DNA from: Winslowiella iniecta
GTDB taxonomy: Bacteria > Pseudomonadota > Gammaproteobacteria > Enterobacterales > Enterobacteriaceae
NCBI RefSeq assembly: GCF_001267535.1
Contig: NZ_JRXE01000028.1
Location: 1 to 64,000, forward strand
Length of the DNA stretch: 64,000 nucleotides
Direction: 5' to 3'
Shown here: positions 1-16,068 of the stretch, in pieces
How the letters are laid out: each line of letters opens with the position of its first letter
Numbering within the stretch: position 1 is the first letter of the stretch
Position numbers and translations under genes: made by a program
The notes under the pieces: generated by a model
What the model saw: only the letters and a program-made list of their open reading frames with translations
Databases searched by the model: none
Told to the model about the DNA's origin: nothing

Positions 1-47
1 ATCTCGGCGGCGTCAGTCCGCAGGCCTTTGAACAGGCCTCGTCGTGA
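1..47 (+). pseudogene. 3' end of an IS3-family transposase (cut by window edge)
   Basis: The first bases read LGGVSPQAFEQASS and then TGA at 45-47. An 'SP-x-x-F-E' tail close to the stop is typical of orfB transposases of the IS3 family. A terminal-repeat-like sequence follows a few bases later, as expected at the right end of such an element. Only this tail is visible, so whether the copy is intact cannot be told here. Confidence 0.5.
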
Positions 48-59
48 GGACAGAATTTG

Positions 60-82
60 TCTACTGGCGTGGGGTCAGTCCA
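60..82 (+). repeat. Probable right terminal inverted repeat of the IS element
   Basis: The sequence TCTACTGGCGTGGGGTCAG at 60-78 runs on to TCCA at 82. It lies 12 bases after the transposase stop and ends in CA, as IS3-family right ends do. The left end is outside the window, so the pairing cannot be checked here. Confidence 0.4.
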
Positions 83-94
83 CTCGTCACCCTG

Positions 95-140
95 TGATTC
101 CCCATTTTCTTTCCCTATAGGCCCATAATCTGGGGAATCA
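95..140. repeat. Perfect 10-bp inverted repeat with a 26-base spacer
   Basis: TGATTCCCCA at 95-104 is exactly complementary to TGGGGAATCA at 131-140. It lies between the IS end and hsdR. There is no T-run after it, so it is not a clear terminator; it could be a regulator site. From 141 to 412 I see AT-rich upstream DNA of hsdR and no further gene. Confidence 0.4.
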
Positions 141-412
141 AATTAACTCATTGTTAATTAGATATTTTCAATCCCTCTACATGGGCTGTCTCTTACCGTG
201 TTTATCGATAAAAAAAGGGGACTCTGCCGGTAAAATAGTGGGCAATGATAACCTTTTGTATTATTTCCTGTGATATTGATGCTTAAGCAAGGTTAATCTC
301 TTGATTAAAAACAGCACAGCGCTATGATTTTGAGAGATATTTCCCAAAATCGAACTTTTCAGCCGTTGTCTGGTAGCAATAAGTGACGGGTGAATGCGCG
401 AGGAGCCTGACG

Positions 413-3400
413 TTGACCACCCCGATTCCCCCTTTATCAGCTAACTTTGCTTTTCTGGAAGAATATGACCCGCTGTTTGTGCAGATAACCGCAACGGCTG
501 AGCAGGTGTTTGCCAGTGACCCGAACACTACGCTGATGAAACTGCGGCAATTTGGTGAGGTTCTCGCCCGGAATATTGCAGTCCGGTTAAATATCAGTCT
601 GGAAGATAACCCCAGCCAACAAGAGCTGTTGTATCGCCTGGACAGAGAGTTACAACTCGACCCTGCCATTCGCCAGCTGTTTCATACTTTACGTATCGAA
701 GGGAATAAAGCCACCCATCAGTTCCAGACTAAACACCGGGAAGCTATGGATGCATTACGCATCGCCCGTGCTTTAGCAATTTGGTTTCATCAAACTTTTG
801 GCAGTGCGGGGAGTGGCTTCAATCCCGGCCCCTTTACTGCTCCCCATGATCCCAGTACCCAGTTAACCCAGTCTCAGCTAGCCATTGAAAAACTTAAGCA
901 GACACTGCTGGCCACCAACCAAAAACTGGAAAGTAGCGAACAGTTACAGACATTACTCAAACAGCAGAAAGAAGAGTATGCCCAACTGGCCGAGGCGATG
1001 GATCAGGAGGTGCGGGAACAGCAAACCCTGCTGGAGATCAATCAGCAGGATTTGCTGCGTTTGCAGAAGGAGTATGACGCTAAGTTAAAGACGCTTCAGG
1101 AACAACTTGCCCTGCAAGCTCAGCAGGTGGTTACCGCCCAGCGGAAGGAGTTTGGTCGTAAGTCCAGCTCAGCCCGTAAGCAGGTGATGACCGAAGAACT
1201 GACGCGTATTCTGATTGACCAGCAGCTTAATGAGTGGGGCTGGCTGACAGATACCGAGGAACTGACCTGGAAAAAAGGCGCTCGGCCAGAAAAAGGTGTC
1301 AACAAAGCCATTGCTGAATGGCCTACCTTGCTGAATGGTGAGCGTGGTAAAGCAGATTACGTCTTATTTTGTGGGCTTATCCCTCTAGCGGCAGTTGAAG
1401 CGAAAAAGAAAAATGAAAATGTCGCAGGGAAAATTCCCCAGGCGGAGCGTTATAGCAAAGGCTTTCAGTTTGATGCCTCATTAACGCCTGCCTGGAAGGA
1501 AGAGGGGTTAACTGCAGGTTGGGATGACGGTACCGGAGAGGTGTTCCAAATCCCCTTTGTTTTCTCCTGCAATGGACGCCCTTACGTTAAACAACTAGCA
1601 GAGTTTTCCGGGACCTGGTTCCGGGATGTACGCTCTCTGGATAATACCCGCTACCCGTTAGAAAATTTTATTACCCCTGAGGGGCTGATAGATCGTCTCC
1701 ATCGCAGCCGAGCTGATGCCGAAGCCAAACTGCATAAGGAACCATTTGGCTACCTTGGTTTACGTGATTATCAGGAAAAAGCGGTCAAAGCAGTGGAATC
1801 GTCTCTGGAGGACGGGGAGCGAGAAGCGCTGCTGGCGATGGCCACTGGCACCGGTAAAACCCGTACCATCATCGGCCTGATCTACCGCTTTTTAAAAGCC
1901 GAGCGCTTTAAACGGATTTTGTTCCTGGTTGATCGTTCAGCGCTGGGGGAACAGGCCCAGGATGCCTTTAAAGAGGCTTCGTTAGAGCAGAACCAAACCT
2001 TATCGCAGATCTACAATATTGCTGAGCTGGGTGATATGGCAGCCGAAGCGGAGACACGCGTTCAGGTGGCCACGGTTCAGGCCATGGTCAGCCGTATCTA
2101 TCGTTCAGGTAATCCGCCTGCGGTGGATACCTTTGACTGCATTATTATCGATGAGGCGCACCGGGGATATACTCTCGATCAGGAGATGACCGAAGGCGAA
2201 CTCGCTATTCGTGATAATGCCCAGTATCTTTCCAGCTATCGTCGGGTGCTGGACTATTTTGATGCGGTAAAAATTGGATTAACAGCCACACCTGCCAAAC
2301 ATACCAGCGAGATTTTTGGGCACCCAGTCTATACCTATTCTTACCGCGAAGCGGTGGCAGAAGACTGGCTAATTGATCATGAACCGCCGATTCGCTATAC
2401 CACTCTGCTCAGTAAGCATGGTATTCACTTTGAGAAAGGTGATGAGGTCAGTGCAATTGATACCGAAACCGGTGAAGTGGATATCAGTGAACTGGAAGAT
2501 GAGCTCGATTTTGATATCGAGGCCTTTAACCGCCGGGTGATTACCGAAGAGTTTAATCGGGTAATTTGTGAAGAGCTGGCGAAAGAGATCGATCCTACAG
2601 GAAATGAAAAGACCCTGATTTTCTGCGCCACCGATGCTCATGCAGATATGGTTAAGCGCCTGTTAGATAAGGCGATGGGTGATGTTCACCCTGATTTTAA
2701 CCAAGTAGCGATAGAAAAAATCACTGGCAAAAGTGATCAGGTCAGTAAGCTTATCAAGCGCTTTAAAAATGAGCGCTACCCCAGTATTGCTATCACGGTT
2801 GACCTCCTGACCACCGGGATTGATGTCCCGCCTATTACGCATCTGGTTTTCTTGCGGCGCGTGAAGTCCCGCATTCTTTATGAACAGATGATTGGCCGGG
2901 CAACACGGCGCTGTGATGAGATCGGTAAAACCGTTTTCTGGATCCACGATCCGGTGGATCTCTATGCCACCCTGCAAGATGTGAATACCATGAAACCGCT
3001 GGTCAAAAATGCCGGGGTCAGTATTGAACAGCTGGTTGAAGAGTTAGCTAATGATGATGTACTGGCCACCGCACTCAATACGCCGGGGGATAGTGCCACG
3101 GAAACGCAAGCGGATAGCCTGCTTAATCAGCTGAGCCAGAAAGTGATGCGAGTGCTGCGTAAAGCCGAGAGCAAGGCTGACAGGCAGCCGGAAGTGCGCC
3201 ATAAGTTAAATGAGCTGGAAGCCTTATGGGGCGTCGAGCCGAAAAACCTGCATCAGCATCTGCATAAAATCGGAACTCAGCAAGCCTCCGTGTTTCTGAA
3301 ACAGCACCGTAATCTGATTACACAGCTGGAAGATGTGGGAGCGCTGCTGGGTAGTGAATACCGCCCGGTGATCTCTGATCACAAAGATGAGCTGATCAGT

Positions 3401-3934
3401 AGAGAGCAAAACTACGGGCGCTATCAAAAACCGGCAGACTATCTACAGAGTTTTACTGAGTATATCAAAAATAACCTGAATCAGTCCGCAGCTTTATCGG
3501 TGGTGGTGAATCGCCCGCGCGATCTGACGCGAGAGCAGCTTAAAGAGATCCGTTTATTACTGGATGAAGCTGGTTACAGTGAGACCAGCCTGCGTTCCGC
3601 TATCCGCACGGAGAGCAATCAGGATATTGCCGCCACCATTATCGGCCATATTCGCCAGGCTGCTCTTGATGAGCCACTTGTCCCCTTTGAAGAGCGTGTC
3701 ACTCAGGCACTGGAGCATATTTACGCCCAGCATAACTGGAACACTGTGCAGAAAAAGTGGCTGGATCGTCTGGCTAAACAACTGGTACATGAGGTGGTGC
3801 TGGATAAAAACGTGGTTAACCAGTCTTTCTCAAACATTGGCGGATCCAAAGGACTCAATAAGGTACTGGATGATCAATTAGACAGTATTCTTGAGCAAAT
3901 GAACGACACCCTGTGGGCTCCAAAAACCGCCTGA
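413..3934 (+). CDS. hsdR: Type I restriction enzyme, R (restriction) subunit HsdR
   Basis: This is the motor and nuclease subunit of a type I restriction-modification complex (R2M2S): it translocates unmethylated DNA with ATP and cuts at a distance. The N-terminal part resembles a DUF4145 domain. A PD-(D/E)xK nuclease follows (D315, then E329-x-K331). The helicase shows Walker A ATGTGKT at 477-483, DEAH at 580-583, then GLTATP and a motif VI 'IGRATRR'. The C-terminal part is the HsdM-contact region. I place the start at TTG 413 because AGGAG lies seven bases upstream; an in-frame GTG at 383 has no good ribosome binding site. At about 1173 residues it has the size of EcoKI HsdR. hsdM and hsdS follow on the same strand. 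Confidence 0.93.
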   Translation: MTTPIPPLSANFAFLEEYDPLFVQITATAEQVFASDPNTTLMKLRQFGEVLARNIAVRLNISLEDNPSQQELLYRLDRELQLDPAIRQLFHTLRIEGNKATHQFQTKHREAMDALRIARALAIWFHQTFGSAGSGFNPGPFTAPHDPSTQLTQSQLAIEKLKQTLLATNQKLESSEQLQTLLKQQKEEYAQLAEAMDQEVREQQTLLEINQQDLLRLQKEYDAKLKTLQEQLALQAQQVVTAQRKEFGRKSSSARKQVMTEELTRILIDQQLNEWGWLTDTEELTWKKGARPEKGVNKAIAEWPTLLNGERGKADYVLFCGLIPLAAVEAKKKNENVAGKIPQAERYSKGFQFDASLTPAWKEEGLTAGWDDGTGEVFQIPFVFSCNGRPYVKQLAEFSGTWFRDVRSLDNTRYPLENFITPEGLIDRLHRSRADAEAKLHKEPFGYLGLRDYQEKAVKAVESSLEDGEREALLAMATGTGKTRTIIGLIYRFLKAERFKRILFLVDRSALGEQAQDAFKEASLEQNQTLSQIYNIAELGDMAAEAETRVQVATVQAMVSRIYRSGNPPAVDTFDCIIIDEAHRGYTLDQEMTEGELAIRDNAQYLSSYRRVLDYFDAVKIGLTATPAKHTSEIFGHPVYTYSYREAVAEDWLIDHEPPIRYTTLLSKHGIHFEKGDEVSAIDTETGEVDISELEDELDFDIEAFNRRVITEEFNRVICEELAKEIDPTGNEKTLIFCATDAHADMVKRLLDKAMGDVHPDFNQVAIEKITGKSDQVSKLIKRFKNERYPSIAITVDLLTTGIDVPPITHLVFLRRVKSRILYEQMIGRATRRCDEIGKTVFWIHDPVDLYATLQDVNTMKPLVKNAGVSIEQLVEELANDDVLATALNTPGDSATETQADSLLNQLSQKVMRVLRKAESKADRQPEVRHKLNELEALWGVEPKNLHQHLHKIGTQQASVFLKQHRNLITQLEDVGALLGSEYRPVISDHKDELISREQNYGRYQKPADYLQSFTEYIKNNLNQSAALSVVVNRPRDLTREQLKEIRLLLDEAGYSETSLRSAIRTESNQDIAATIIGHIRQAALDEPLVPFEERVTQALEHIYAQHNWNTVQKKWLDRLAKQLVHEVVLDKNVVNQSFSNIGGSKGLNKVLDDQLDSILEQMNDTLWAPKTA

Positions 3935-3968
3935 TCGTGTTACCCTTTCCCGTAATTTTTCAGTAAAC

Positions 3969-3986
3969 AGGCCGGTTAACCGGCCT
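3969..3986. promoter_or_regulatory. 18-bp perfect palindrome between hsdR and hsdM
   Basis: AGGCCGGTTAACCGGCCT is self-complementary and lies 15 bases before the hsdM start. It is followed by TCTTC rather than a T-run. It could be a weak terminator or attenuator, or an operator for a separate hsdM promoter; separate control of methylase and nuclease is common in such operons. The role is not shown by the sequence. Confidence 0.4.
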
Positions 3987-4000
3987 TCTTCGGAATACCT

Positions 4001-5626
4001 ATGAGCAATAATAACGAAATCGTCCAGAAACTCTGGAACCTGTGTGATGTGCTGCGTGATGACGGCATTAACTACAGCGACTATGTCACTGAGCTGGTAT
4101 TGCTGCTGTTTATCAAGATGGTGCATGAGAACACCGAAGCTGAAACGCTGGATAAACACACCCTGCCAGAAGGCTGTCGCTGGACTGATTTAAACGGTAA
4201 ATCCGGGATTAACCTGCTGAATGATTACAAACAAATTCTGCTGAAACTTTCTACCGGTAAAGATGCGGAAGGCAACCTCGTGCATGCTGACCCGTTGATT
4301 ACTGCTATCTATGCCGATGCCCAGACCCGTCTGCGTGAGCCACGCCACCTAGAGCAGCTGATCCGCTCTCTGGACCAAATCGACTGGTTTAGTGTCCAGA
4401 AAGACGGTCTGGGTGATTTATATGAAGGCTTGCTGGAGAAGAACGCCGGTGAAACCAAGTCCGGTGCCGGGCAGTACTTTACCCCGCGGGTACTGATCAA
4501 TAGCATGGTTAACTGCATCAAACCCCAGCCGGGGGAAGTTGTACAGGACCCGGCGGCAGGCACCGCCGGGTTCTTAATCGCTGCCGACCAGTATATTAAG
4601 TCTCACACCGATGATCTCTACGACTTAACGGCCAAAGAGCAGCAGTTTCAGAAAAATAAAGCCTTTGTCGGTATCGAACTTGTGCCCTCAACCCGCCGCC
4701 TGGCGCTGATGAACTGCCTGCTGCACGGTATGGAAGGGGATGATGAAGGCGTGGTTCATCAGGGTAATGCCTTAGGGATGGCCGGGCAGTCGCTGGCGAA
4801 AGCCGATATTATTCTGGCTAATCCGCCTTTTGGTACCGCAAAGGGGGGGGAAGCCAGTATTACCCGAGATGACCTTACCTATCCCACCAGTAATAAGCAG
4901 CTGGCCTTTTTACAGCATATCTACCGTAATCTAAAACCGGGCGGCCGCGCCGCCGTGGTCTTGCCGGATAACGTATTATTTGAGGCCGGGGTCGGCACTG
5001 ACGTGCGCCGTGACCTAATGAATAAATGTAATCTGCATACCATCCTGCGCTTACCCACCGGGATTTTTTATGCTCAGGGCGTGAAAACCAACGTACTGTT
5101 TTTCACCAAAGGCACCGAGGCGGATAAATATCAGGAAGAGAACTGTACGCAAAATATCTGGGTCTATGACCTGCGCACCAATATGCCGAGCTTTGGCAAG
5201 CGCACCCCCTTCAATGAAAACCATTTAAAACCTTTTGAAAAGGTTTTCGGTGATTCGCCCAATGGCATTAGTCCGCGTCAGGAAGGGGAGTGGAGCTTTA
5301 ACGCTGAAGAAATTGAGGCCCCTGATACGGCAGAAAACGACAATGTGGCCGAGCGCCTCACGACCAGCCGCTGGCGGGCCTTTACCCGGGAGTGGATCCG
5401 CGACTCCAAAGGAGACTCGCTGGATATCTCTTGGCTACGGGATAATAGCAGCGTGGATGCTGCCAGCTTGCCAGAACCCGCGGTATTAGCCGGAGAAGCC
5501 ATGAGCGAGCTGGTACAGGCCTTGGGTGAGCTGGGTGCATTGATGCGTGAGTTAGGGGCTGTGGAAGAGGCGGATGCGCAGAGCATGTTGTTACATCAAA
5601 TGATGGGCGGAAGTAGTTATGAATGA
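4001..5626 (+). CDS. hsdM: Type I methyltransferase, M subunit HsdM
   Basis: N6-adenine DNA methyltransferase that modifies the site recognised by HsdS and forms the M2S core. The N-terminal HsdM_N helical domain (about 1-140) is followed by the Rossmann methylase domain. The S-adenosylmethionine motif DPAAGTAGF is at 183-191 and the catalytic NPPF at 274-277. A helical C-terminal tail, likely contacting HsdS, ends the protein. Its 541 residues are normal for the EcoKI class. It starts 66 bases after hsdR, and its last bases overlap the start of hsdS by eight bases (ATGAATGA), so translation of the two is probably coupled. Confidence 0.95.
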   Translation: MSNNNEIVQKLWNLCDVLRDDGINYSDYVTELVLLLFIKMVHENTEAETLDKHTLPEGCRWTDLNGKSGINLLNDYKQILLKLSTGKDAEGNLVHADPLITAIYADAQTRLREPRHLEQLIRSLDQIDWFSVQKDGLGDLYEGLLEKNAGETKSGAGQYFTPRVLINSMVNCIKPQPGEVVQDPAAGTAGFLIAADQYIKSHTDDLYDLTAKEQQFQKNKAFVGIELVPSTRRLALMNCLLHGMEGDDEGVVHQGNALGMAGQSLAKADIILANPPFGTAKGGEASITRDDLTYPTSNKQLAFLQHIYRNLKPGGRAAVVLPDNVLFEAGVGTDVRRDLMNKCNLHTILRLPTGIFYAQGVKTNVLFFTKGTEADKYQEENCTQNIWVYDLRTNMPSFGKRTPFNENHLKPFEKVFGDSPNGISPRQEGEWSFNAEEIEAPDTAENDNVAERLTTSRWRAFTREWIRDSKGDSLDISWLRDNSSVDAASLPEPAVLAGEAMSELVQALGELGALMRELGAVEEADAQSMLLHQMMGGSSYE

Positions 5627-6935
5627 TTTATCCTTCCCAAATATATGGCTGTCAAGGAAAGCTCTTGATTGCTTTATACAAATATCAACTAATAAAAAAA
5701 ATGTTAAAACTAAAGATTGCAAGTCTGAGGGTTTATATCCTGTCATCGACCAAGGACAACAGTTTATCTGCGGCTATATAGATGATGAAAGTAAAGTAAT
5801 TAAGATATCAAGCCCACTTTGTGTGTTTGGCGACCATACCAGAGTCATAAAGTGGGTTACTCAAGACTTTGTACCTGGTGCTGATGGAACAAAAATTCTA
5901 GAAGCAGAGAAATTTATTTTTCCAAAATATGGTTATTACGCGCTCAGATTTATCGATATTCCAGATAAAGGTTATTCGCGCCATTTTAAATATTTAAAGG
6001 AATTAGAAATACCTATCTCCTCCTTGGCTGAACAAAAAATCATCGCCGATAAACTCGATGACCTTTTGGCTCGCGTGGAGAGTATTAAAACCCGGCTGGA
6101 AAATATCCCTGAAATTTTGAAAAAATTTAGGCAGTCGGTGTTGAGTGCGGCGGTAAGTGGGAAGTTGACTGAAGAGTGGAGAAATAGCGATTCTTTTGGC
6201 GAAAATATTTTTTTAGGTGATTTGATTTCTAGCGGTCCCCAAAATGGATTGTATAAGCCTTCAAGTTTTTATGGGCGTGGAACAAAAATAATCAGAATAG
6301 ATAGTTTCTATGATGGTGAAATAATCGATTGGGAAAAAATAAAAAAAGTTGAATTGAGCAAGGGTGAATTAGATAAGTGGGCACTAAGAAAAAATGATGT
6401 GCTGATAAATAGAGTGAATAGCAGAGAATATTTAGGTAAGTGTGCTCTTGTCAAGAGTATGCCTAGTGAATGTGTGTTCGAAAGTAATATCATGAGACTG
6501 TCTTTAATTGAAGAGAAAGTAATTCCAGAATATATAATATTGTACCTTTGTAGTGAAAAAGGTGTTTCTGAACTAAGAAAAAATGCCAAATTAGCTGTGA
6601 ATCAAGCAAGTATAAATCAGGATGATGTGAAGAACTGTATTATTCTCCTTCCCAACATAGATGAGCAAAAAGAAATTATTAGGCGAGTTAATATATGTTT
6701 TTCGTATTCAGATAAGGTTTCGGAAAATGTTTTTATAGCTTTATCTAAAGTTAATGTTATTGCTCAATCCATCATCGCCAAAGCGTTCCGCGGCGAACTA
6801 ACCGCCCAATGGCGAGAGGAAAACCCTGAGCTGATTAGCGGCCTTAATAGTGCGGAAGCTCTGCTGGAAAGAATTACTGCTGAAAAGCTGGCTTCTGGCA
6901 CGATAAAAAAACGCACTAAAAAGACCTCCCACTAA
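5619..6935 (+). CDS. hsdS: Type I specificity subunit HsdS
   Basis: DNA-recognition subunit of the type I complex. Two target recognition domains are visible: about 1-135 and about 190-345. They are separated by the conserved helical spacer (LAEQKIIADKL at 137-147 to SAAVSGKL near 176-183). A matching C-terminal repeat includes DEQKEIIRRV and 'AFRGELTAQW'. The two recognition domains are much more AT-rich than hsdR and hsdM, while the conserved helices have normal composition. This is the usual mark of domain swapping in hsdS. The DNA specificity cannot be read from the sequence. It overlaps hsdM by eight bases. Confidence 0.93.
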   Translation: MNDLSFPNIWLSRKALDCFIQISTNKKNVKTKDCKSEGLYPVIDQGQQFICGYIDDESKVIKISSPLCVFGDHTRVIKWVTQDFVPGADGTKILEAEKFIFPKYGYYALRFIDIPDKGYSRHFKYLKELEIPISSLAEQKIIADKLDDLLARVESIKTRLENIPEILKKFRQSVLSAAVSGKLTEEWRNSDSFGENIFLGDLISSGPQNGLYKPSSFYGRGTKIIRIDSFYDGEIIDWEKIKKVELSKGELDKWALRKNDVLINRVNSREYLGKCALVKSMPSECVFESNIMRLSLIEEKVIPEYIILYLCSEKGVSELRKNAKLAVNQASINQDDVKNCIILLPNIDEQKEIIRRVNICFSYSDKVSENVFIALSKVNVIAQSIIAKAFRGELTAQWREENPELISGLNSAEALLERITAEKLASGTIKKRTKKTSH

Positions 6936-6938
6936 AAT

Positions 6939-6958
6939 CAGCCCACGCTGGTGGGCTG
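6939..6958. terminator. Hairpin between convergent hsdS and mrr
   Basis: CAGCCCAC (6939-6946) pairs perfectly with GTGGGCTG (6951-6958) around a GCTG loop, and is followed by an AT-rich stretch. It sits directly after the hsdS stop and before the mrr stop, so it may end both transcripts. Confidence 0.55.
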
Positions 6959-6983
6959 TAATAATATAATCCAGCGACGAATA

Positions 6984-7901
6984 TTACTGCTCAAAATAAT
7001 CCATATCGATTTTGGGCAGTTTAATCTGTTGCGAGGTAACACCCACTTCATTATCCATCATTAAGTTAACCAGTCGATTGCCATCGATCAGGACTAAACC
7101 CTCAACGGATCGGGAAAATTCCACCGCATGGGCGGTAAAGCCTGATGTGGTGATAAAGATACCGCGTTTGGCTTTTTGCCCCGCCAGTGCGCCATAGAAA
7201 GCTTGTAGTTCTGGGCGGCCAACAGTGCCTTGCCAACGCTTCGCTTGGACATAGACCTTTTCCAGCCCAAGTTTATCCAGAGAGATAATGCCATCAATAC
7301 CGCCGTCGCCGGTACCCCCGACGCGCTGGAGATCGTCTCTATGGCCGCCGTAACCAAGCTTATGCAACACATCTAAAACGATCACTTCAAAGCGATTCGG
7401 TGAGACCTGCAGCAAATTTTCCAGCAATTCGCTGGCTACCGCACTGCGGATCTCTGCCAGGGCTTCCGCTAAGCGGTCATCCGGGCTGCTGGTTTGTGGG
7501 GAAATTACCGTGTCCGGTGCGCCGTTATCATCCAGCATAACTGCATCCGCAGGGGTGGTCAGTCGGACGTTCATAAAATCAAACGCCAGATGATCAACCA
7601 GCTCTTTACTGAGGGGAAATGGATGCTGTTTAAGCCAGTTGAAGCCAGCTTCGGTTAAACACCATTTACCGCGCGACAGGCTTTGGGACAGTCCGGCACG
7701 TTTTAGCCGATCGTGGGCCCACCCGGCCCGATTTTTATAAACAGGTTGGCCGCTGGGGATAAGCTCATTACGCTGGCTATCATCAAGATGCAGTAAGTTG
7801 GCTGCTCCCTCATAAACCTCTTTTGCGGTGACTCCCGCAGGTGATTGCTGTAATACCCGTAATACGGGCTCAATAAAGTTATCGTAGGTAGGAACCGGCA
7901 T
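6984..7901 (-). CDS. mrr: Mrr-type restriction endonuclease
   Basis: Type IV restriction nuclease expected to cut foreign methylated DNA. The N-terminal part (about 1-95, YDNFIEPVL to FNWLKQHP) is the Mrr winged-helix DNA-binding domain. The C-terminal part (about 165-270) is the Mrr catalytic domain of the PD-(D/E)xK superfamily: D203 in GDGGIDG, and Q219-A-K221 in place of E-x-K, as is usual in Mrr. The length (305) matches E. coli Mrr. In E. coli mrr lies upstream of hsdR; here it lies downstream of hsdS and points towards it. A Mrr enzyme next to an adenine methylase raises a compatibility question, since some Mrr proteins attack methyladenine sites. Confidence 0.93.
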   Translation of the reverse strand: MPVPTYDNFIEPVLRVLQQSPAGVTAKEVYEGAANLLHLDDSQRNELIPSGQPVYKNRAGWAHDRLKRAGLSQSLSRGKWCLTEAGFNWLKQHPFPLSKELVDHLAFDFMNVRLTTPADAVMLDDNGAPDTVISPQTSSPDDRLAEALAEIRSAVASELLENLLQVSPNRFEVIVLDVLHKLGYGGHRDDLQRVGGTGDGGIDGIISLDKLGLEKVYVQAKRWQGTVGRPELQAFYGALAGQKAKRGIFITTSGFTAHAVEFSRSVEGLVLIDGNRLVNLMMDNEVGVTSQQIKLPKIDMDYFEQ

Positions 7902-8086
7902 GGTGCTCTCTTTCTATCTTAAGATTTAATATTTTTATTATGGCATCGAACTTATAAAGCGTGAAGTTCGATAACCAATTATTTTTATTGATTATGTTTT
8001 TTGCTTGCGAATAATAGGTTATATTTAATGGGTGCCATTAATAATCTTCACTCTCCTTTTTATTACTTTCTTCGAGGTTAATTATA

Positions 8087-8158
8087 ATGGATAAAAAGAT
8101 TGATTTTATTTTTCACCCCCAAATAAATGAAGCTTATTCTTCCAATGATATTTTTTGA
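8087..8158 (+). other. Out-of-frame 5' end of the gene at 8127-8663
   Basis: ATG 8087 has a good GAGG (8074-8077) nine bases upstream and reads MDKKIDFIFHPQINEAYSSN, then DIF and TGA at 8156-8158. The reading frame breaks exactly after a run of six T (8151-8156). With five T it would run on into the 8127 frame as ...SSNDIFDDEMIGLEI. So the original start of the next gene was very probably here. Confidence 0.6.
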
Positions 8159-8663
8159 TGATGAAATGATTGGTTTGGAAATATCAATGGAATACTACGA
8201 TTTTAGTCTTGATAACTTCCAAAGGGAAATTCTGCACTGGTTTAAACCACGCTTTGCAGCAGGGAAATTATTAGCGGGTGTACAGCAGCTAGTGAAAAAG
8301 CAGCTCCCTGAGATTAAGCCACATTCTATTGAAGTGAATGTGATACCTGCGATCTTACCTTTCGATGATGAAAACGGCGATATACTCAGCCTGCTGCAAA
8401 TCTGCGGTTTAACAATAACGGATTGGCAGAGTATTCATGCGGATGTGGAAGTCACCACGCTGCCGCTCTGGCATGGTGAGGAAGAAGAGATCGTGCTTAA
8501 TTTTTCCCCCAAGGTCCCGGCGGAGGTGATGCAGTATGTGAAACGCCTACATGGCTGGACAGCCTATACGGGCATTACGGTGAGTGAGACAGACCCAGGC
8601 ATTATCACCCATCACGGACTTTTACCGTATATCGCTGAACCGCGGCAATCAGAAAGTTTATAG
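8127..8663 (+). CDS. Unknown acidic protein, 178 aa, probably frameshifted at its 5' end
   Basis: I do not recognise this protein. It is acidic, soluble-looking and has no signal peptide or membrane segment. The start at ATG 8127 has no ribosome binding site (CCCCCAAATAA precedes it). A better start in another frame at 8087 leads into the same coding sequence if one T is removed from a six-T run at 8151-8156. It may thus be a slightly broken gene, a homopolymer switch or a sequencing error. It lies next to mrr, inside the likely island end, so a role linked to the defence cluster is possible but not shown. Confidence 0.6.
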   Translation: MKLILPMIFFDDEMIGLEISMEYYDFSLDNFQREILHWFKPRFAAGKLLAGVQQLVKKQLPEIKPHSIEVNVIPAILPFDDENGDILSLLQICGLTITDWQSIHADVEVTTLPLWHGEEEEIVLNFSPKVPAEVMQYVKRLHGWTAYTGITVSETDPGIITHHGLLPYIAEPRQSESL

Positions 8664-8689
8664 TTATCAGCAAATTATTCTTAAACCAT

Positions 8690-8708
8690 GAGTCCGGCCT
8701 TCGCACCA
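8690..8708 (+). repeat. Candidate attachment-site remnant: tRNA-Leu 3'-end-like sequence
   Basis: GAGTCCGGCCTTCGCACCA matches, with one missing G, the T-arm and acceptor end with CCA of the E. coli leuX tRNA-Leu(CAA) as I remember it. No tRNA body lies upstream (8650-8689 does not fold as one). Integrases that use tRNA genes leave such 3'-end copies at the far end of an island. A terminator hairpin follows at 8727, as it would behind a real tRNA gene. Confidence 0.45.
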
Positions 8709-8726
8709 AATGGTATGAAAATAAAA

Positions 8727-8749
8727 GTCGCTTACGAGCGGCTTTTTTT
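8727..8749 (+). terminator. Intrinsic terminator
   Basis: GTCGCT (8727-8732), loop TACG, AGCGGC (8737-8742), then seven T. The stem has one G-T pair. It could end the 8127-8663 transcript or be the former terminator of a tRNA gene. Confidence 0.65.
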
Positions 8750-8859
8750 GTGCCTGGAATATGGTGATTATAAAGGTCATCAACTGTTTTCTGTCCAGCA
8801 ACGTTACTTGGTTCAACTTAGCCTCAAGCCCATTTTGAACCAATCGATCGTTACCGCCT

Positions 8860-9390
8860 TCACGCACCACGCCACTCATCTAAACTAACTGAATACAGCA
8901 AGCTGGGCGGCGCATTCTCTACATCATAAATTTCTTCAACATACTTCAATCCAGCTTTCAACAGCACTTTCTGCGAAGCCAAATGATCGCCTCTCACCAC
9001 CGCCGAAATCTTATCCAGTTGTAGCTGCTCAAAACCATAATCAACAGCGTACCGGGAAAACTCGGTTGCTAATCCTTTGCCCCATGCTTCGGTAGCAAAA
9101 CGGTATCCAAGGTTGTTAACGTTGATACCGGCATAACTGCTGATGCTCAGTCCACCAAAACCCATTATCTTATCTGGCGTTTCATTTAATGAAATTGCCC
9201 ATAACCCGAAGGCCTTTTCTTCCCAGTGAGTCAGCCAGCGATTCAGAACAGCTTTCGCATGGCTGATATCCGGGTAAGGGCCAGCAGGGTTGAAAGTATT
9301 CGTTGCAGGATCGCCGTAAATTCTGAATAAATCTTCGACATCCGACGCGGTTACTGGCCGCATCGTCAGACGTTCCGAGTGTGCAGGCAT
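8860..9390 (-). CDS. GNAT family N-acetyltransferase (RimJ/RimL type)
   Basis: A 176-residue Acetyltransf_3 type GNAT enzyme that uses acetyl-CoA. It opens with SERLTMRPVTASD, typical of the family, and shows the acetyl-CoA loop in YRFATEAWGKGLATE and the late segment 'NLASQKVLLKAGL'-like (HLASQKVLLKAGLKYVE). The substrate cannot be inferred; relatives act on ribosomal protein N-termini or on small amines. ATG 9390 has GGAG six bases upstream. It stands alone, on the strand opposite to the island genes. Confidence 0.85.
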   Translation of the reverse strand: MPAHSERLTMRPVTASDVEDLFRIYGDPATNTFNPAGPYPDISHAKAVLNRWLTHWEEKAFGLWAISLNETPDKIMGFGGLSISSYAGINVNNLGYRFATEAWGKGLATEFSRYAVDYGFEQLQLDKISAVVRGDHLASQKVLLKAGLKYVEEIYDVENAPPSLLYSVSLDEWRGA

Positions 9391-9428
9391 TTAATTCTCC
9401 GGATTATTGGCTGAAAATGGATAACCCA

Positions 9429-9917
9429 TTAATAAGCCCCATAGTAATCTAACTTATAACGTTGCCCGTCAATTTGCAGATCGCGCCCCGGTTTTTCGAT
9501 CGTGCCAAGTTCTCCCTGCTGAATGGCGCGGTCAAATGCTGCGGAATATTTGTCCGGACACGAAATTCTGTCCCGACACGAAAATCCTGCAATGTTACGC
9601 CATTGCTCATTTTCTTCGCTAAAGGCGGTGATTTCACGCTGGTCGCGATCGTATACCAGTACTTCAGGCTTACCGTCATTATTGAGATCCATGGTCCACG
9701 CGATACAGGGTGATGAAGCAACAAGGCAGGTGCGCACCCCGTAACTGTTCTCGCTCAGGCTCTGCCACCAGCTTTCCGGTAACAACGGGCTCCCTTTACG
9801 TAATGTAATCGTTTGTCGCAGCTTTAGCGCTTTTAATGCCGGGGATTCATCTCGGGTCTGGCTGGTCAGTAATGATGCGAGGGTGCCACGCCAGCTCTGC
9901 TGGGTCCGCCAGCCACT
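9429..9917 (-). pseudogene. C-terminal part of the DUF4153 protein, in a shifted frame
   Basis: Reading downstream from about 9917 in the other frame gives a continuous protein-like sequence (RTQQSWRGTLASLLTSQT, then KLRQTITLRKGSPLLPESWW). It ends at TAA 9429 and holds a 'DLNNDGKPEVLVYD' segment like a calcium/FG-GAP style loop. No ATG or GTG start opens this frame; only a TTG at 9785 does. It is best read as the tail of the upstream gene after a one-base shift near 9905-9920. The periplasmic-looking tail has four cysteines. Confidence 0.6.
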
Positions 9918-11148
9918 GCGGATGAGCTTGCAAGGTTAGCAACGCCTGATGACCACGGCGACCAGCAATGCTGAACATGTAGAGATCGCCGGGGTTCGCC
10001 TGCTGCAAGCCTTGCTCAAGTCGTGATAACTGATTATTTATCGTAATACGGTAAGGGTCGAGAGCCGGGCTGTGTAGCAGTAGCCACAGTATCGCCATCA
10101 GACCCAGAACACAGGTACTCAGCATATCAAGTTTTGGTGAGTCATCACGCCATGCTCGTCGTTGTAGCCAGGCAGTGCCAACTGTCCAGGCCAGGGTGAC
10201 AGCAATGACAGCGGCAGCATTGATGCGATCCATTGTCCAGCCATACTGTGCTACGCGCAGCCATAGCGCCCAGGCTGCCAGTATTGCGAACAGGGGCATC
10301 AACCATTGCGCGATGACCACCAATTTGCGTAGCCAGCCAGGATAGCGCAGTACGGTTGCTGTGGGTGAGCAGACTATCGCGGTCATCACCATCATCGCCA
10401 GCGCCATGGTCGTAAGCAGCAGTACGGTGGAGACATTTTTGGGAATAATTATCAGCCCGGTAAAAGGCAATACGGCGAGGAATATCAGCGAGACAGCGGC
10501 GTGGAGCGGCAGCGCCACTGCGGCCATTAACGAGATAACCCGTTTGAAAATATTGCCGGCGGCAGGAAGGCTGCGGCATAACGCAACACTCGCCGCAATG
10601 ACAACGCCGGTGGCCACGGGCGGAAAAATATCGTTATAAAAAAACCATCGATCAAATAGCCTGAGCTCAATCAGGCCGAACAGATTGCTCCACAGCAGCA
10701 TAACCAACCAGAATAAACCCGTGAGCAGTGTGGCGACGATCACAGTAAAACTGTTAGCCCAAAGCGAAGCAATCACAGCGGTCGCCATGTTGTCACCCGA
10801 TTTCCAGTTACGCGCCTGCAGAAACGGTAATATCAGAAATAACCAGAAGACGATAACCGGCATGATGTCGACAATAAAGAAGCGCGAACTGTCGTCGCGA
10901 AAGTTCCAGTCCAGCCAGAGGGTAATTAATGCCAAAAACGGCAGAACTGACAGGGCGAGCAGCCAGGGCAAGGGAGAGCGAAAGCGGGTCACAGTGAATA
11001 CCAGCACGCCGGTAAAGCCGCTCAGCAGGACCAGCAGCAGCGCTGAAGTTTGGAAATACATCAGCGTGGCCCAGCTTGAGCCAGCTAAAAATCCGGTAAT
11101 AATGATACCTGAGCGGCAGGTCGGAGTGAGTGGAGAGGTTGCAAGCAT
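9847..11148 (-). CDS. DUF4153-like multi-span inner membrane protein (frameshifted)
   Basis: About ten hydrophobic segments mark this as a polytopic inner membrane protein; the general look is that of DUF4153. The function is unknown. I place the start at ATG 11148 (MLATSPLTP), with AAGGA seven bases upstream; an in-frame upstream extension to 11298 looks non-coding. The last 20 or so residues (ADPAELAWHPRIITDQPDPR) look unnatural. The sense continues in another frame to 9429, so a single-base shift near 9905-9920 has probably split one gene of about 570 codons. Confidence 0.65.
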   Translation of the reverse strand: MLATSPLTPTCRSGIIITGFLAGSSWATLMYFQTSALLLVLLSGFTGVLVFTVTRFRSPLPWLLALSVLPFLALITLWLDWNFRDDSSRFFIVDIMPVIVFWLFLILPFLQARNWKSGDNMATAVIASLWANSFTVIVATLLTGLFWLVMLLWSNLFGLIELRLFDRWFFYNDIFPPVATGVVIAASVALCRSLPAAGNIFKRVISLMAAVALPLHAAVSLIFLAVLPFTGLIIIPKNVSTVLLLTTMALAMMVMTAIVCSPTATVLRYPGWLRKLVVIAQWLMPLFAILAAWALWLRVAQYGWTMDRINAAAVIAVTLAWTVGTAWLQRRAWRDDSPKLDMLSTCVLGLMAILWLLLHSPALDPYRITINNQLSRLEQGLQQANPGDLYMFSIAGRRGHQALLTLQAHPQWLADPAELAWHPRIITDQPDPR

Positions 11149-11394
11149 TAAACAGTCCTTGTTATGCCAAGCGCAGCGTGTGAAAACGTTAATCCTGATA
11201 GCCGTTATCTTCGGTATCAGAGTACGGAAATCATATTCTTGTTTGTGTCTGCGGCCAATATGCTGACAATATAAAGAATGAGAAATGTGATCCCACATCA
11301 GATAAATAACATCAGTATTTATCTTGTGTAAATAAAATTGTCAGGGATAGCTTTTAAGAAGTACATTGCTTCACAGCAATAATGTCGTATAGCA

Positions 11395-11528
11395 ATGAGA
11401 AGGAGCCTCTGATGCTATCAAAACCGAATTTGACCTGCACACCGTTACGTTTTCCATTTACGGTTTACTGGAAAAAAATGAAGGGAAAAGTTTTTGACGG
11501 TTCAATAACGATAATATTCAGACGTTAA
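11395..11528 (+). pseudogene. Decayed 5' end of a DUF3289 gene
   Basis: The ribosome binding site and first codons (GAGAAGGAGCCTCT then ATG 11412, MLSKPNLTCTPLRFPFTVYW) are nearly the same as those of the intact gene at 12725 (MSSGLNLTCTPLSFPFTVYR). After about 20 codons the likeness ends, and a stop comes at 11526. It is the head of a second DUF3289 copy whose body has been lost. Confidence 0.7.
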
Positions 11529-11618
11529 ATTGTCAGACATAGATAAAAAATAAATACTACTGAACATCAGGATTTTTGTCAGTTCTCACCGATTAATATC
11601 CTGCAAGCACTATTCGCC

Positions 11619-11809
11619 TTAGCTAAAAATCCTCTGGATGCTTGCCTCATGTTGACGCACCTGTGCAATCACTGTTTCAGCATCTCCTGAACCCTTTTCT
11701 GTTGCGTTGTACAAGATGATCACTTCCATGCCTGGAGGTGATGGCTGGGTAAAATTGCAGAAAGCGAGGTAAAGAACACTGACAATGTTGAAAAAAGCAA
11801 GTAGGATTT
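11619..11809 (-). pseudogene. Coding-like fragment without a start
   Basis: The minus strand holds about 60 codons of protein-like sequence (FCNFTQPSPPGMEVIILYN, ending in QVRQHEASIQRIFS) before TAA at 11619-11621. The frame is closed upstream by a stop near 11809, and the only ATG is internal (MEVIIL). It looks like the 3' end of a lost gene, but I do not recognise the family. The rest of 11529-11800 shows nothing else. Confidence 0.35.
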
Positions 11810-11817
11810 AATCCTAC
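11801..11817. promoter_or_regulatory. Palindromic operator candidate before parD
   Basis: GTAGGAT-TTA-ATCCTAC is a perfect 7-bp inverted repeat, 24 bases before the parD start. Antitoxins of this class repress their own promoter by binding such palindromes. Confidence 0.5.
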
Positions 11818-11841
11818 CCGGCGGAAACTAAGGTGTTACCG

Positions 11842-12120
11842 ATGAGAACAACACAGCAGATGAGTATTACGCTGCCGAATGAAATGGCAGCGCAGGTGAA
11901 AGCACGTGTGGCCAGTGGCGAATATGCATCAGAGAGTGAAGTTATCCGGGAGGGGCTCCGGGCGTTGATGGCTCGTGATAATGCGGTGGAACAATGGTTG
12001 CGGGAGAAGGTAGTTCCTGCGTGGGAAGCACTGCAAAACGGTGAAACAGAAAGCCTCAGTGGTAACGATATCAGGGACAGGCTGAAAGCCGAACACAGGA
12101 AGGTTACCGGAGAGGAATAA
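11842..12120 (+). CDS. parD: ParD-like antitoxin of a type II toxin-antitoxin system
   Basis: A small DNA-binding antitoxin that would neutralise ParE and repress the operon. The N-terminal ribbon-helix-helix is clear (QQMSITLPNEMAAQVKARV, then GEYASESEVIREGLRAL). The C-terminal half, acidic and probably disordered until bound, would wrap the toxin. ATG 11842 has AAGG eight bases upstream; a GTG at 11833 overlaps that site and is less likely. The stop overlaps the toxin start by one base (TAATG). Confidence 0.9.
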   Translation: MRTTQQMSITLPNEMAAQVKARVASGEYASESEVIREGLRALMARDNAVEQWLREKVVPAWEALQNGETESLSGNDIRDRLKAEHRKVTGEE

Positions 12121-12434
12121 TGGACTACAAGGTCGTATTCGCATCGGAAGCGGAAGAACAACTGGCAGAATTGTATCGTTATATCGCAAAAGCGGCGACA
12201 CCGGAAACGGCTCTGGGCTATACGGAAAGTGTTATCGGTTACTGTGAGTCTCTGGAGCGTTTTCCGCACCGGGGAAATCGTCGTGATGATATCCTGACAG
12301 GATTGAGGGTAACGAATTATCGCAAAAGAACAATCATCGCCTTTATGGTACGTGATAAGACGGTAAGCATTTTGGGGATATGGCATGGCGGTCAGGACTA
12401 TGAAGACGATCTGCTGGCCGATGAAACAGACTGA
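12120..12434 (+). CDS. parE: ParE/RelE-family toxin
   Basis: A 104-residue toxin of the RelE/ParE fold; members of the ParE branch poison DNA gyrase. Typical features are the N-terminal 'YKVVFASEAEEQLAELYRYI', the central 'RFPHRGNRRDDI' and the C-terminal strand 'VSILGIWHGGQDYE'. It begins on the last base of the antitoxin stop codon, the usual coupling. The pair sits between a dead and an intact DUF3289 gene, which suggests it arrived or was trapped during rearrangement of that locus. Confidence 0.9.
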   Translation: MDYKVVFASEAEEQLAELYRYIAKAATPETALGYTESVIGYCESLERFPHRGNRRDDILTGLRVTNYRKRTIIAFMVRDKTVSILGIWHGGQDYEDDLLADETD

Positions 12435-12724
12435 TAATAATCGGCTACAGTATAGGTAGTCAGTTTCATCTGCCATTTGTAAGCATATAGTGTTCCATCC
12501 TCAGATAAAGCGCATTTGGACTAAATGATTGTCAGATTAAAATGTGTTAAATTCTGCAATCAGTTACGGTTGTTATATGCTGGTGCTTATTGCTAACATT
12601 ATGCTCCCCCCTGAAAAATGCATTCAATAAATATTGAATGAAAATAAACTTGTCATAAATACTCTAAAAGAGATAAATTACTGTGCAAGGCATGAAGCCA
12701 CATTATCTTGAGAAGGAGCCTCTT

Positions 12725-13579
12725 ATGTCATCCGGTCTGAATCTGACCTGCACACCGTTAAGTTTTCCATTTACGGTTTACCGGACAAAAAACAAAATGA
12801 ATGATTATCATGCTTATGATATGAGGCATGGTGATTTAAGTGAGTTTCAGTTAAAGGAACACTTTGGATTACATCAGATAGTTGAAGGTGTTAATCCTTA
12901 TACTAACGAAATTTCGCGCTATCCTGTTGGTAACTACAGCTTTGCCAGACCGGCTATTATTACTGAAACCCGAAGTCGTGAAGAAATAGCGCAAATGCTA
13001 TTTGATCAGTTCAGACAATACTCTGCACCCGTTTCCTTTATGGGATATCGAAAATTATTTATCAGTTTGATAAACCATCTGCAAACCGGGGATGGTGAGC
13101 CATTTTATGATGATTTATTGAACACAGCTTATCATAAGCAAATTGTAAGTGATACGACTGAAAATAGTTCACTTCTGACAATAAAAAATGTTATAGAAAG
13201 TAATATCGACTGGGGTGTGTCTGTCTATCCTGATCAATACAAGGATGAGTTTAATCAAAAGTTAAGCGGAGTTATTTTACCAAAATTCAATCTCTGGATA
13301 GATCGTGTTAACGGTTTGGGGATTTCCGTTCATGATATTTATGCAACACATATCACAATTCAATCGCTGACTGTGGATCAGGATGGTTATACTGCAATAG
13401 TTCATTATCAGGGACAGGATCATTTTGGGCTGGATGACAAAGATATAATGAGCCAGTTATATCATAACCTGCCAATTTTTCGGATTTGGTTTATACTGCA
13501 GCGCTGGGAAAAATTCGGATACAAGCCATTTGTTACTAATATGGAGGCGACTATCGAGTTCAAAGGGAGACGAAAATGA
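12725..13579 (+). CDS. DUF3289 family protein
   Basis: A 284-residue protein of what I take to be family DUF3289, often found in enterobacteria next to DUF943 genes. The biochemical role is unknown to me. The protein has no signal peptide; it carries the segment 'QTGDGEPFYDDLLN' and a C-terminal stretch FRIWFILQRWEKFGYKPF that looks conserved. ATG 12725 has AAGGAG six bases upstream; an in-frame extension to 12683 lacks one. Its stop overlaps the start of the DUF943 gene by four bases (ATGA), so the two are translationally coupled. The locus is AT-rich. An antibacterial effector with a membrane-bound immunity partner is one plausible reading, not proven. Confidence 0.75.
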   Translation: MSSGLNLTCTPLSFPFTVYRTKNKMNDYHAYDMRHGDLSEFQLKEHFGLHQIVEGVNPYTNEISRYPVGNYSFARPAIITETRSREEIAQMLFDQFRQYSAPVSFMGYRKLFISLINHLQTGDGEPFYDDLLNTAYHKQIVSDTTENSSLLTIKNVIESNIDWGVSVYPDQYKDEFNQKLSGVILPKFNLWIDRVNGLGISVHDIYATHITIQSLTVDQDGYTAIVHYQGQDHFGLDDKDIMSQLYHNLPIFRIWFILQRWEKFGYKPFVTNMEATIEFKGRRK

Positions 13580-14082
13580 AGAGTAATTATTTAAAGATAG
13601 CATTAATATTACTTCTCCTGCCTTTAATTTATTTTATTTGGCTTCTTGCGCAACCAGTACAAATAATTGCAGTTCATACAAACAGCCACTGGACAGAAGT
13701 TTTGGTGAAAAACTTCCCTTTAACCAGTAGAGGGAAAGTCGACTGGTGGGAAAGTAACAAAACACGGTTAAAGGAAAAATATGGGATGCCTGAAACAGAT
13801 AATGATGGTAGATATTCAATAACATTCTGGGATTTTGGTAATGGATATGAGATTGAACAGCCGGATAAAAGTACTTTTTTCCCCAGCAAAGACACCGATC
13901 ATCTGTTCTGCTTTGAGGATATGAAGGTTAAAGCGAGATGCATAAGGAAAGAAAATATTCTGATGAATATAAATACCACCAGTGAAAATCTTATAAGGTT
14001 TGACGCAAATGGAGATGTGTATTATCAGGATAAAAACGGGAAAATATCTGAAGGAGAAAGATTCTCTTATACGGTTAAATAA
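13576..14082 (+). CDS. DUF943 family membrane-anchored protein, copy 1
   Basis: A 168-residue protein with one N-terminal membrane segment (about 7-25, IALILLLLPLIYFIWLLA). The rest is a soluble, probably periplasmic domain with the motif run IIAVHTNSHWTEVLVKNFP, then WW, KYGMP, FWDFGNGYEIEQPDKSTFFPS. This matches what I know of DUF943. Function unknown. It overlaps the DUF3289 stop by four bases. A dead copy and a second intact copy follow on the same strand. Confidence 0.75.
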   Translation: MKSNYLKIALILLLLPLIYFIWLLAQPVQIIAVHTNSHWTEVLVKNFPLTSRGKVDWWESNKTRLKEKYGMPETDNDGRYSITFWDFGNGYEIEQPDKSTFFPSKDTDHLFCFEDMKVKARCIRKENILMNINTTSENLIRFDANGDVYYQDKNGKISEGERFSYTVK

Positions 14083-14110
14083 AATGCTCTATAAGGAATT
14101 ATAGGGGTGG

Positions 14111-14381
14111 CCTGTTAAAGCTATCGCGGTTCATTCAGATGAAAACAGACGCTGTAAAGTAATGAATAACTCTCCTTTAACGGATCATGGAAAGATTGAC
14201 AGGTAGTTAATTAACAAAAGGTTTTTGAAAACAGATATGCTGGCTCCGAAATTATCAATGATGGTGGTTATTCTGTTGTTATTTGGGGGTAAGTGCAATT
14301 CCAAATAACCCAATCAGCTTTTCTTTAGGTGATACATACTATTATCAGAACCAGAATGGTGAAATTAATAAAGGAAGATGA
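14111..14381 (+). pseudogene. Dead DUF943 copy
   Basis: Starting at 14111 the frame reads PVKAIAVHSDENRRCKVMNN then SPLTDHGKIDR and a stop, which lines up with the AVH...NFPLT...GKVDWW segment of the flanking copies. Further on, GDTYYYQNQNGEINKGR and TGA at 14379-14381 match their C-terminus. The N-terminal membrane segment and the middle are lost. Confidence 0.7.
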
Positions 14382-14427
14382 ATCAAAAATTATCGAGTGT
14401 CTGACGACTAATCTATAAGCGGATCAA

Positions 14428-14922
14428 ATGAAAACTCTCACGTTAAATATTCTTGCTGCATTAATTATCACTGCAACTATCTACCTGATCTGGAAATTTT
14501 CCCGACCGACCGAAATAGTCGCTGTCCACTTGAGTCAATACGCAAGCTATATAGTAGTTAAGAACTTTCCATTTACTGACAGTGGAATGATAACATGGTG
14601 GCAGGAGAACAGAGTCTTGTTAAAAGAGAAGTATGGTGTGCCAGAACTTGGTTCTGAGGGAAGTGAATCGATTTCTGTCTGGAACTTCGGGGATGGATAT
14701 CAAATTGAAAAGCCGGATAAAGATTCATTTTTCCCCAGTAAAGATACTTCTTATTTATTATGTTTTGCTGATATGAATGTCAAAGAAAATTGTATTGTCA
14801 AAGATTCCTTGATGAGCATAGGTAAAACACGTGATGGTGTAATACTCTTTCGATTTGGGAATAAAGTATATAGCGAAAAGGATAATGGGGAGGTGGTTCG
14901 CCGTAAAATCTCTGGCTCTTAA
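14428..14922 (+). CDS. DUF943 family membrane-anchored protein, copy 2
   Basis: A 164-residue paralogue of the protein at 13576. It has an N-terminal membrane segment (about 6-22), EIVAVHLSQYASYIVVKNFP, 'WWQENRVLLKEKYGVPELG' and 'IEKPDKDSFFPSKDTSYLLCF'. The two copies are clearly related but not close, more like diverged immunity variants than a recent duplication. No DUF3289 gene accompanies this copy. Confidence 0.75.
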   Translation: MKTLTLNILAALIITATIYLIWKFSRPTEIVAVHLSQYASYIVVKNFPFTDSGMITWWQENRVLLKEKYGVPELGSEGSESISVWNFGDGYQIEKPDKDSFFPSKDTSYLLCFADMNVKENCIVKDSLMSIGKTRDGVILFRFGNKVYSEKDNGEVVRRKISGS

Positions 14923-14986
14923 GCACTGTTAATCGGGACAGGGTAGCTTCTCTCGCTCAGGCTCAGCCGTCTGGTGTTTACTGCTG

Positions 14987-15269
14987 AACATCCATATATG
15001 GTGTAACACATTTTTGCGGCTTACGAAAATGAACGTAGTCACCCGCATACGCGGCTTATCACATAGCTTTTCAACCTGCGAAAAATCCTAACCACACCCT
15101 CTAATCTGCCACTTTCCTATCAATCTGCAAAAAACAATCGCCCAAACCATAAGTCAAATTTTTCCGACAATATATGATGCGCACTCAAATAGTTTTCTTT
15201 ACGACCAGCAAGCACTTTACCGGCTGACTTTGCAGTCTGGCGTTGTTACGCCTTATATATATGGATGTT
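14987..15269. repeat. 283-bp segment flanked by 13-bp inverted repeats upstream of mrkA
   Basis: AACATCCATATAT at 14987-14999 is the exact reverse complement of ATATATGGATGTT at 15257-15269. The segment ends 145 bases before the mrkA start and should contain its promoter. It could be a small non-autonomous element, or an invertible promoter like the fimS switch of type 1 fimbriae. No recombinase gene is near. The rest of 14923-15414 shows no gene. Confidence 0.45.
15118..15123 (+). promoter_or_regulatory. TATCAA hexamer, candidate MrkH box
   Basis: In Klebsiella the c-di-GMP-bound MrkH activates mrkA from a TATCAA site upstream of the promoter. The same hexamer lies here 297 bases before mrkA, in front of AT-rich promoter-like DNA (TATATGAT at 15171). 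A hexamer can occur by chance, so this is only a candidate. Confidence 0.3.
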
Positions 15270-15414
15270 GAACTTATATTTCTTTTCGCTTCCGCTGTGT
15301 CGGGGTTTCTATTTTGCTAAACCAGAGTTTGAGTGGCGCGAAATATTTCTGATTTTTGTGCCGTTTGACGCTTTATCCACTGATGTTCAATCAATTCCGG
15401 CATAGGAAATAGTA

Positions 15415-16017
15415 ATGAAACAACTCATCCTTTCAGCAGCAGTTGCTACTGTGGTTCTCGGCATGTCTGCGGCAAATGCAGCAGATAATAATGTAGGCGG
15501 CGGCCAGGTTAACTTTTTCGGTAAGGTGACTGACGTTTCCTGTACCGTTTCTGTCAATGGCCAGGGCAGCGATGCTAACGTTTATCTGGCTCCGGTTACC
15601 CTGACCGAAGTGAAAAACGCCAGCGCCAACACCTTCCTGAAGCCTAAATCCTTCACTATCGATGTCTCTAACTGCCAGGCGGCAGACGGCACCGCACAGG
15701 ATGACACCAGCAAACTGGGGGTCAACTGGACCGGCGGTAACCTGTTAGCCGGTGCGAATGCCCAGCAGCAGGGTTATCTGTCCAATACCGAGAGCACCGG
15801 TGCACAGAACATTCAGCTGGTACTGGCGACCGGCACTGATGCCAGCCTGACCAATAAAATCATCCCAGGTGCCAGCGGACAGCCAAAAGCCACCACCAGT
15901 GCGGTGAATAACGGTACGCGTTTCACCTACTACGTCGGTTATGCCACCAGCACCCCGGATACGGTTTCTACCGGCGTGGTAAACAGCTACGCGACTTACG
16001 AAATCACTTATCAGTAA
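15415..16017 (+). CDS. mrkA: Type 3 fimbrial major subunit MrkA
   Basis: Major pilin of type 3 fimbriae (surface filament, biofilm). It has a signal peptide ending near ANA-AD (residues 21-24) and is very similar along its whole 200 residues to Klebsiella MrkA as I remember it: [45 protein letters not shown], and the C-terminal donor/acceptor motif ending [13 protein letters not shown]. Two cysteines would form the pilin disulphide. It heads mrkABCD; a hairpin after it probably reduces read-through so that the subunit is made in excess. Confidence 0.95.
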
Positions 16018-16033
16018 TTGCTCTGTTAACCAC

Positions 16034-16062
16034 AAGCGGCAGGATTCTGCCGCTTATTTTTT
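16034..16062 (+). terminator. Attenuator hairpin between mrkA and mrkB
   Basis: AAGCGGCAG (16034-16042), loop GATT, CTGCCGCTT (16047-16055), then A and six T. The T-run ends a few bases before the mrkB start. A leaky terminator here would set the ratio of subunit to assembly proteins. Confidence 0.75.
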
Positions 16063-16068
16063 GAGGTA

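Follow-up and report, generated by a model that had tools for sequence, protein, structure and literature searches.

A 19-base sequence, GAGTCCGGCCTTCGCACCA, lies at positions 8690-8708 on the forward strand of the 64,000-nucleotide stretch of Winslowiella iniecta DNA analysed here (the window), and it raises the question of why the 3' end of a tRNA gene should stand there with no tRNA body attached. The 19-mer is an exact match and the sole one in the window at up to three mismatches (none in 100 shuffles), and no second copy turned up in the 4.78-Mb assembly when up to two mismatches were allowed, indels not counted. ARAGORN called no tRNA at 8690-8708, and the only tRNA found in the window is a tRNA-Leu(CAG) at 43167-43253. 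A complete tRNA-Leu(CAA) gene, leuX, occurs elsewhere in the genome (G000:C6:182891-182975) and has the same end bases with GG. Two observations of a preliminary description, that these bases lie past hsdRMS-mrr without a tRNA body and that they match the CCA end of a leuX-type tRNA-Leu(CAA) but for one G, were thus confirmed. The sequence is very probably the distal attachment site (attR) of an island that entered at the leuX 3' end in the manner of P4-type integrases, with hsdRMS, mrr and an orphan gene between its ends.

Three segments of this site could be distinguished, all on the forward strand. The core (8690-8708) corresponds to the displaced leuX 3' end minus one G, and the similarity to a copy in Tatumella sp. 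JGM91 (L147) ends at its last base. The left, element-side arm (8664-8689) aligns with three sister elements and, from 8664, also with P4-like prophages of Escherichia coli. The terminator-like arm (8709-8755) resembles arms that directly follow complete leuX genes in other genomes, and the 52 bases 3' of the scar have a strong terminator-like hairpin (-18.4 kcal/mol, z -4.7).

The region to the left of the site appears to hold a type I restriction-modification system together with a type IV enzyme, as domain matches to R, M and S subunits and to Mrr indicate, and the gene names given in the preliminary description were right. These genes are hsdR (383-3934, forward strand; recognised by Pfam, PADLOC and NCBIfam), hsdM (4001-5626, forward), hsdS (5619-6935, forward) and mrr (6984-7901, reverse; 97% identical over 239 aa in L145). 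The orphan reading frame adjoining attR (8127-8663, forward) encodes 178 aa here and 191-192 aa in relatives; in the window the gene (8088-8663) is out of frame near its start, and alignment showed intact copies in three relatives. No family match was found for the window frame against Pfam or for its Tatumella copy against PADLOC, NCBIfam and Pfam. Among genome contigs, relatives of the orphan protein were confirmed in JGM118, BIGb0407 and JGM91 only, and none was confirmed in viral contigs. The cargo is variable, as hsdR, mrr and the orphan were found in none of the stretches (15-20 kb each) from 14 genus-mates, three of which contain a distant HsdM-like match (24-27% identical).

The orphan, the left arm and the core also occur together in three fetched genomes, Tatumella sp. 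JGM118 (L148), Klebsiella sp. BIGb0407 (L146) and Tatumella sp. JGM91. In JGM118, a single contig runs from leuX (8818-8902) through about 1 kb with a terminator arm to hsdRMS, mrr and the orphan, and then to the core at 18341, with approximately 9.5 kb between the two cores. The two ends expected of a tRNA island, a complete tRNA gene and, opposite it, a displaced 3' fragment of like orientation, are therefore present on one contig in this copy; in the source genome they lie on different contigs. Window positions 196-8760, with collinear hsdR and hsdM, are about 90% identical in DNA to the JGM118 copy, except for hsdS, where just 138 bp of 5585-6737 align. The HsdS of the window (5619-6935) and that of JGM118 (15187-16584) thus differ over most of their length in otherwise closely similar islands, as expected from the swapping of target-recognition domains. 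The Mrr proteins of the window and JGM118 share 97% identity over 239 aa, whereas YjjA, encoded beside leuX, is only 58% identical over 101 aa between the two genomes, which indicates that the block has moved horizontally between genera. The JGM91 copy ceases to resemble the window after 8708, where a P4-type integrase gene comes next. In BIGb0407 and JGM118 the similarity continues to 8760 because their right terminator arms resemble that of the window, and hence the clean breakpoint comes from JGM91 alone. Both BIGb0407 and JGM91 have kept the orphan end and lack hsdRMS-mrr. The stretches with this orphan-attR end hold other defence-like genes, and those recognised in BIGb0407 encode a retron reverse transcriptase, a PtuA-like ATPase, a QatA-like NTPase and an NsnA-like protein.

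The window covers the first 64,000 positions of a contig of 78,423 bp (C28), and leuX and the scar are thus on separate contigs in the source genome. A DUF4153 gene to the right of the scar provides a link, since each of the five other genus genomes that carry it has this gene on the yjjA contig, at a distance of 10-57 kb from yjjA and towards leuX. Based on this synteny in the genus, C6 and C28 are very likely neighbours in the source genome, their join being absent from the assembly. The adjacency of opgB and yjjA in E. coli K-12 lends no more than weak support to this arrangement, since yjjA is on C6 in the source genome. As other markers, mdoB gave no match in the 36 stretches searched, and fimbrial usher homologues were dropped for the right flank after matches had appeared in 32 of 37 genomes, many per genome. 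The complete leuX that the preliminary description had placed to the left does exist, and its position next to the window is suggested by synteny. A point against the island reading is that on C6 leuX is followed by an arm different from that of the window and by other mobile remnants (a PD-Lambda-2_C-like gene and a capsid protein), implying more than one element at the site. In the fetched stretch around this gene (L006), a second 13-base leuX 3' fragment, with GG, was noticed at 8529-8541, about 0.55 kb past leuX, and after it come the PD-Lambda-2_C-like gene, a truncated integrase and the capsid protein (8902-12646 and 17880-19004); this is another element at the same tRNA gene. In addition, positions 1-6968 of L006, beside yjjA-leuX, appeared by eye to be part of a type III secretion (hrp-like) cluster, in which a sigma-54 activator (also present in genome G033) and a transglycosylase were recognised.

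An integrase was also expected to the left of the window, and this part of the preliminary description was not upheld. The Pfam integrase model gave nine matches in the source genome, and P4-type integrase queries against the stretches around all nine recognised only the integrase beside tmRNA. The sole integrase-like match in the 11.7 kb after leuX on C6 is a XerC-like fragment of 219 aa, and no P4-type integrase was found in window positions 1-15500 (tblastn, E up to 0.01) or in L006. With the same type of query, no integrase was detectable between leuX and hsdR in the contiguous Tatumella copy, so that an integrase next to the tRNA gene, one mark of tRNA islands, was seen neither there nor in L006. 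For this reason the element is termed an integrase-less derivative and not a full member of the class, and the Tatumella copy indicates that the block can occupy leuX without an integrase.

YjjA (DUF2501) was found in all 37 genomes of the genus, just 5' of leuX wherever a fetched stretch contains the two genes. Besides the source genome, 11 genus-mates contain the exact scar. In nine of them the scar shares a contig with yjjA and follows leuX, similarly oriented, at a distance of 8-32 kb; the contigs of the remaining two (G016 and G031) are broken. Eight of the nine have a P4-type integrase sequence that begins no more than 0.25 kb from leuX, although it is only an N-terminal remnant in G023 and is in two pieces in G026; none was found near leuX in G014. 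The suggestion that everything from the left edge to the scar is the distal part of a tRNA-integrated island is thus supported by the contiguous Tatumella copy and by these nine scars downstream of yjjA-leuX, apart from its integrase. Conservation of the scar in strains without hsd had been named as an argument against the island. Such scars do exist in other species, yet they border other islands and hence do not count against this reading.

The absence of one G from the core extends well beyond this locus. Among 121 distinct sites in the fetched loci, a biased set, since most loci had been picked up by searching for either the G-less or the leuX pattern, 72 of 81 leuX-type scars lack the G; the remaining nine scars and all 34 recognised leuX genes have GG. 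Sites with fewer than 30 bases on the left or 10 on the right were skipped, three tRNA-Thr rows were excluded from the counts, and from 12 GG sites without a recognised leuX 5' half, L067 (a leuX), L099 and L023 (tRNA-like T-arm) were set aside as tRNA-like or cut-off to give the 81 scars. Before these three rows were set aside, the scars formed 39 left-arm clusters, of which 30 were G-less only, six showed both states and three had GG only. In a set of 196 relatives, the G-less core was detected in 22 genomes and the GG core outside a leuX-like context in none; in 392 genomes of the family, the exact G-less core was found at 63 sites in 62 genomes, compared with six GG cores in a non-leuX context. 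Viral contigs yielded 25 G-less and six GG matches, with just two scars among the latter and four tRNA-Thr genes. The GG pattern barred any site at which the fifth base ahead of the core is G, and so removed leuX itself. As exact patterns overlook drifted scars, a looser search of 37 fetched genus loci is also relevant, and it revealed three more scars (L015, L027/L078 and L081), all G-less. Random decay of the G was rejected on the basis of the 63 versus six sites in the family and these three drifted scars. The missing G is therefore a recurrent feature and not an odd mismatch.

These observations suggest a mechanism of the following kind. The island would have entered the leuX 3' end by site-specific recombination of the P4-integrase type, which would keep leuX complete proximally and shift a copy of its 3' end, together with a terminator, to the distal boundary. 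The insertion was presumably made by a P4-type integrase that the examined sequence does not contain. The missing G corresponds to the 'damage' seen in the displaced fragment of some tRNA islands. A G-less fragment could not serve as a tRNA 3' end, and leuX would therefore be expected to break if excision used a crossover 5' of the damage. The simplest reading is that the G is lost at or after integration. In 2003, Williams reportedly described the P4-subfamily integrase as appearing to promote attachment-site damage routinely, perhaps adaptively.

Three alternatives need to be weighed against the attR reading and its account of the lost G. That the 19-mer arose by chance, or by ordinary drift of a sequence other than a tRNA, has a negligible probability, since nothing but the single-base difference speaks for it, about 3.5e-5 chance copies are expected per genome and the exact 19-mer is present in 62 of 392 family genomes; moreover, we regard it as already refuted by the collinear island in Tatumella. 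A different possibility is that the scar marks the junction of two tandem leuX elements, so that a second element, its integrase lost, would start to the right of 8708. The right arm does resemble arms that precede P4-type integrases (best match in G034, 88%), and in two of three E. coli regions (L002 and L003, but not L004) the same core is followed by the integrase remnant of a second element. The DUF4153 gene of the right flank has a patchy distribution of its own, with 6 of 37 genomes carrying it, and variability may extend past 8708. Against such a junction, no P4-type integrase sequence was detected in the first 15,500 positions of the window, as noted above, and in two genus-mates (G005 and G033) a similar arm after leuX is followed by DUF3289/DUF943 genes related to window positions 12683-14922, with no P4-type integrase detected in these 18-20 kb stretches. 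The junction is therefore considered unlikely, although it retains some plausibility. Between the scar and the fimbrial cluster, a ParD/ParE toxin-antitoxin pair was also observed (11833-12434).

The third alternative concerns the origin of the missing G, which could be carried in the attP of the element, with the crossover to its right inside GCACCA, and thus be passed on with the left arm instead of arising at integration. The state of the G indeed tracks the left side in the leuX genes and scars counted above, and seven right-arm clusters occur behind both leuX with GG and G-less scars. On the other hand, the attP of free phage P4 has GG, while the G is missing from all 10 distinct integrated sites whose left arm is P4-like. 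No free attP other than that of P4 was seen, since a search with the P4 attP returned P4 records only from the phage collection and one partial match from the plasmid collection; when phage records were searched with the scar region, the matches were weak throughout (30 records, E up to 10). In addition, GG is found in three sister elements that share the left arm of the window, and the loss has thus not become fixed in this element. According to the relevant passage of PMC3202238, an E. coli 536 strain from which PAI II had been lost regains a complete leuX once the island is inserted, which fits a damaged end left by excision and a crossover 5' of the damage. Inheritance through attP is thus rather improbable, and loss at or after integration is preferred.

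As an attR, the scar is of a known and ordinary kind, with a neat regularity at the edge. The leuX gene is listed as defence hotspot #37 (HS37) of E. coli, with defence genes in 97% of isolates, and type I restriction-modification is given at 17% in a wider enterobacterial set (sections of PMC12707154 on this hotspot); a BREX island with a P4-family integrase is described at leuX in Salmonella in part of PMC9009780. The island shares the leuX anchor, type I restriction-modification with other defence cargo and high turnover with the hotspot as portrayed in these sections, but differs in that no integrase was found at its left anchor, mrr and the orphan ride with hsdRMS, and its right-hand neighbours are other ones. 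P4-like satellite prophages at leuX-type sites have the same core, the same one-base loss and a similar terminator arm; however, none of 12 P4 proteins had a match in window positions 1-15500 or in the C6 leuX stretch (tblastn, E 1e-3), including alpha, psu, delta and sid. With respect to the 'damaged' tDNA islands of Islander, the absent G, one of the GG before C-A(73)-CCA, amounts to a small loss in the displaced fragment, 3 bp upstream of the discriminator, which agrees with the definition given there, where Williams 2003 is cited for this position and 148 of 3919 islands are listed with damage (as far as the relevant part of PMC4383910 goes). Islander requires an integrase inside the island, unlike the Tatumella copy. 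A text search of open-licence papers found neither the 16-base GG nor the 15-base G-less core string, and the leuX pattern is not claimed to be unpublished.

With the attR reading, the right boundary of a mobile defence block, seen crossing between genera, is placed to the single base. The one-base loss may further serve as a cheap beacon for leuX islands in draft genomes, even when the tRNA gene and the island end sit on separate contigs, and an older idea, that attachment-site damage stabilises islands, becomes easy to test with phage P4 in E. coli. A bolder proposal, which we regard as speculative and probably wrong, is that hsdRMS-mrr-orphan is an integrase-less defence cassette with leuX attachment sites at its ends, moved between genera in trans by the integrases of other leuX elements, and that loss of the far-core G, which recurs in dozens of leuX elements whose left arms are unrelated, traps islands in place, since their excision destroys leuX and the tRNA is held hostage.

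Two further loci, L049 and L128, were considered as leuX genes with a G-less end. This was rejected because the longer stretches L159 and L172 show only the leuX 3' half and ARAGORN called no tRNA, so that they are scars too. In both of these G-less scars the leuX 3' half is present from the anticodon loop onward, and an element using an anticodon-loop site has perhaps been joined to a P4-type arm.
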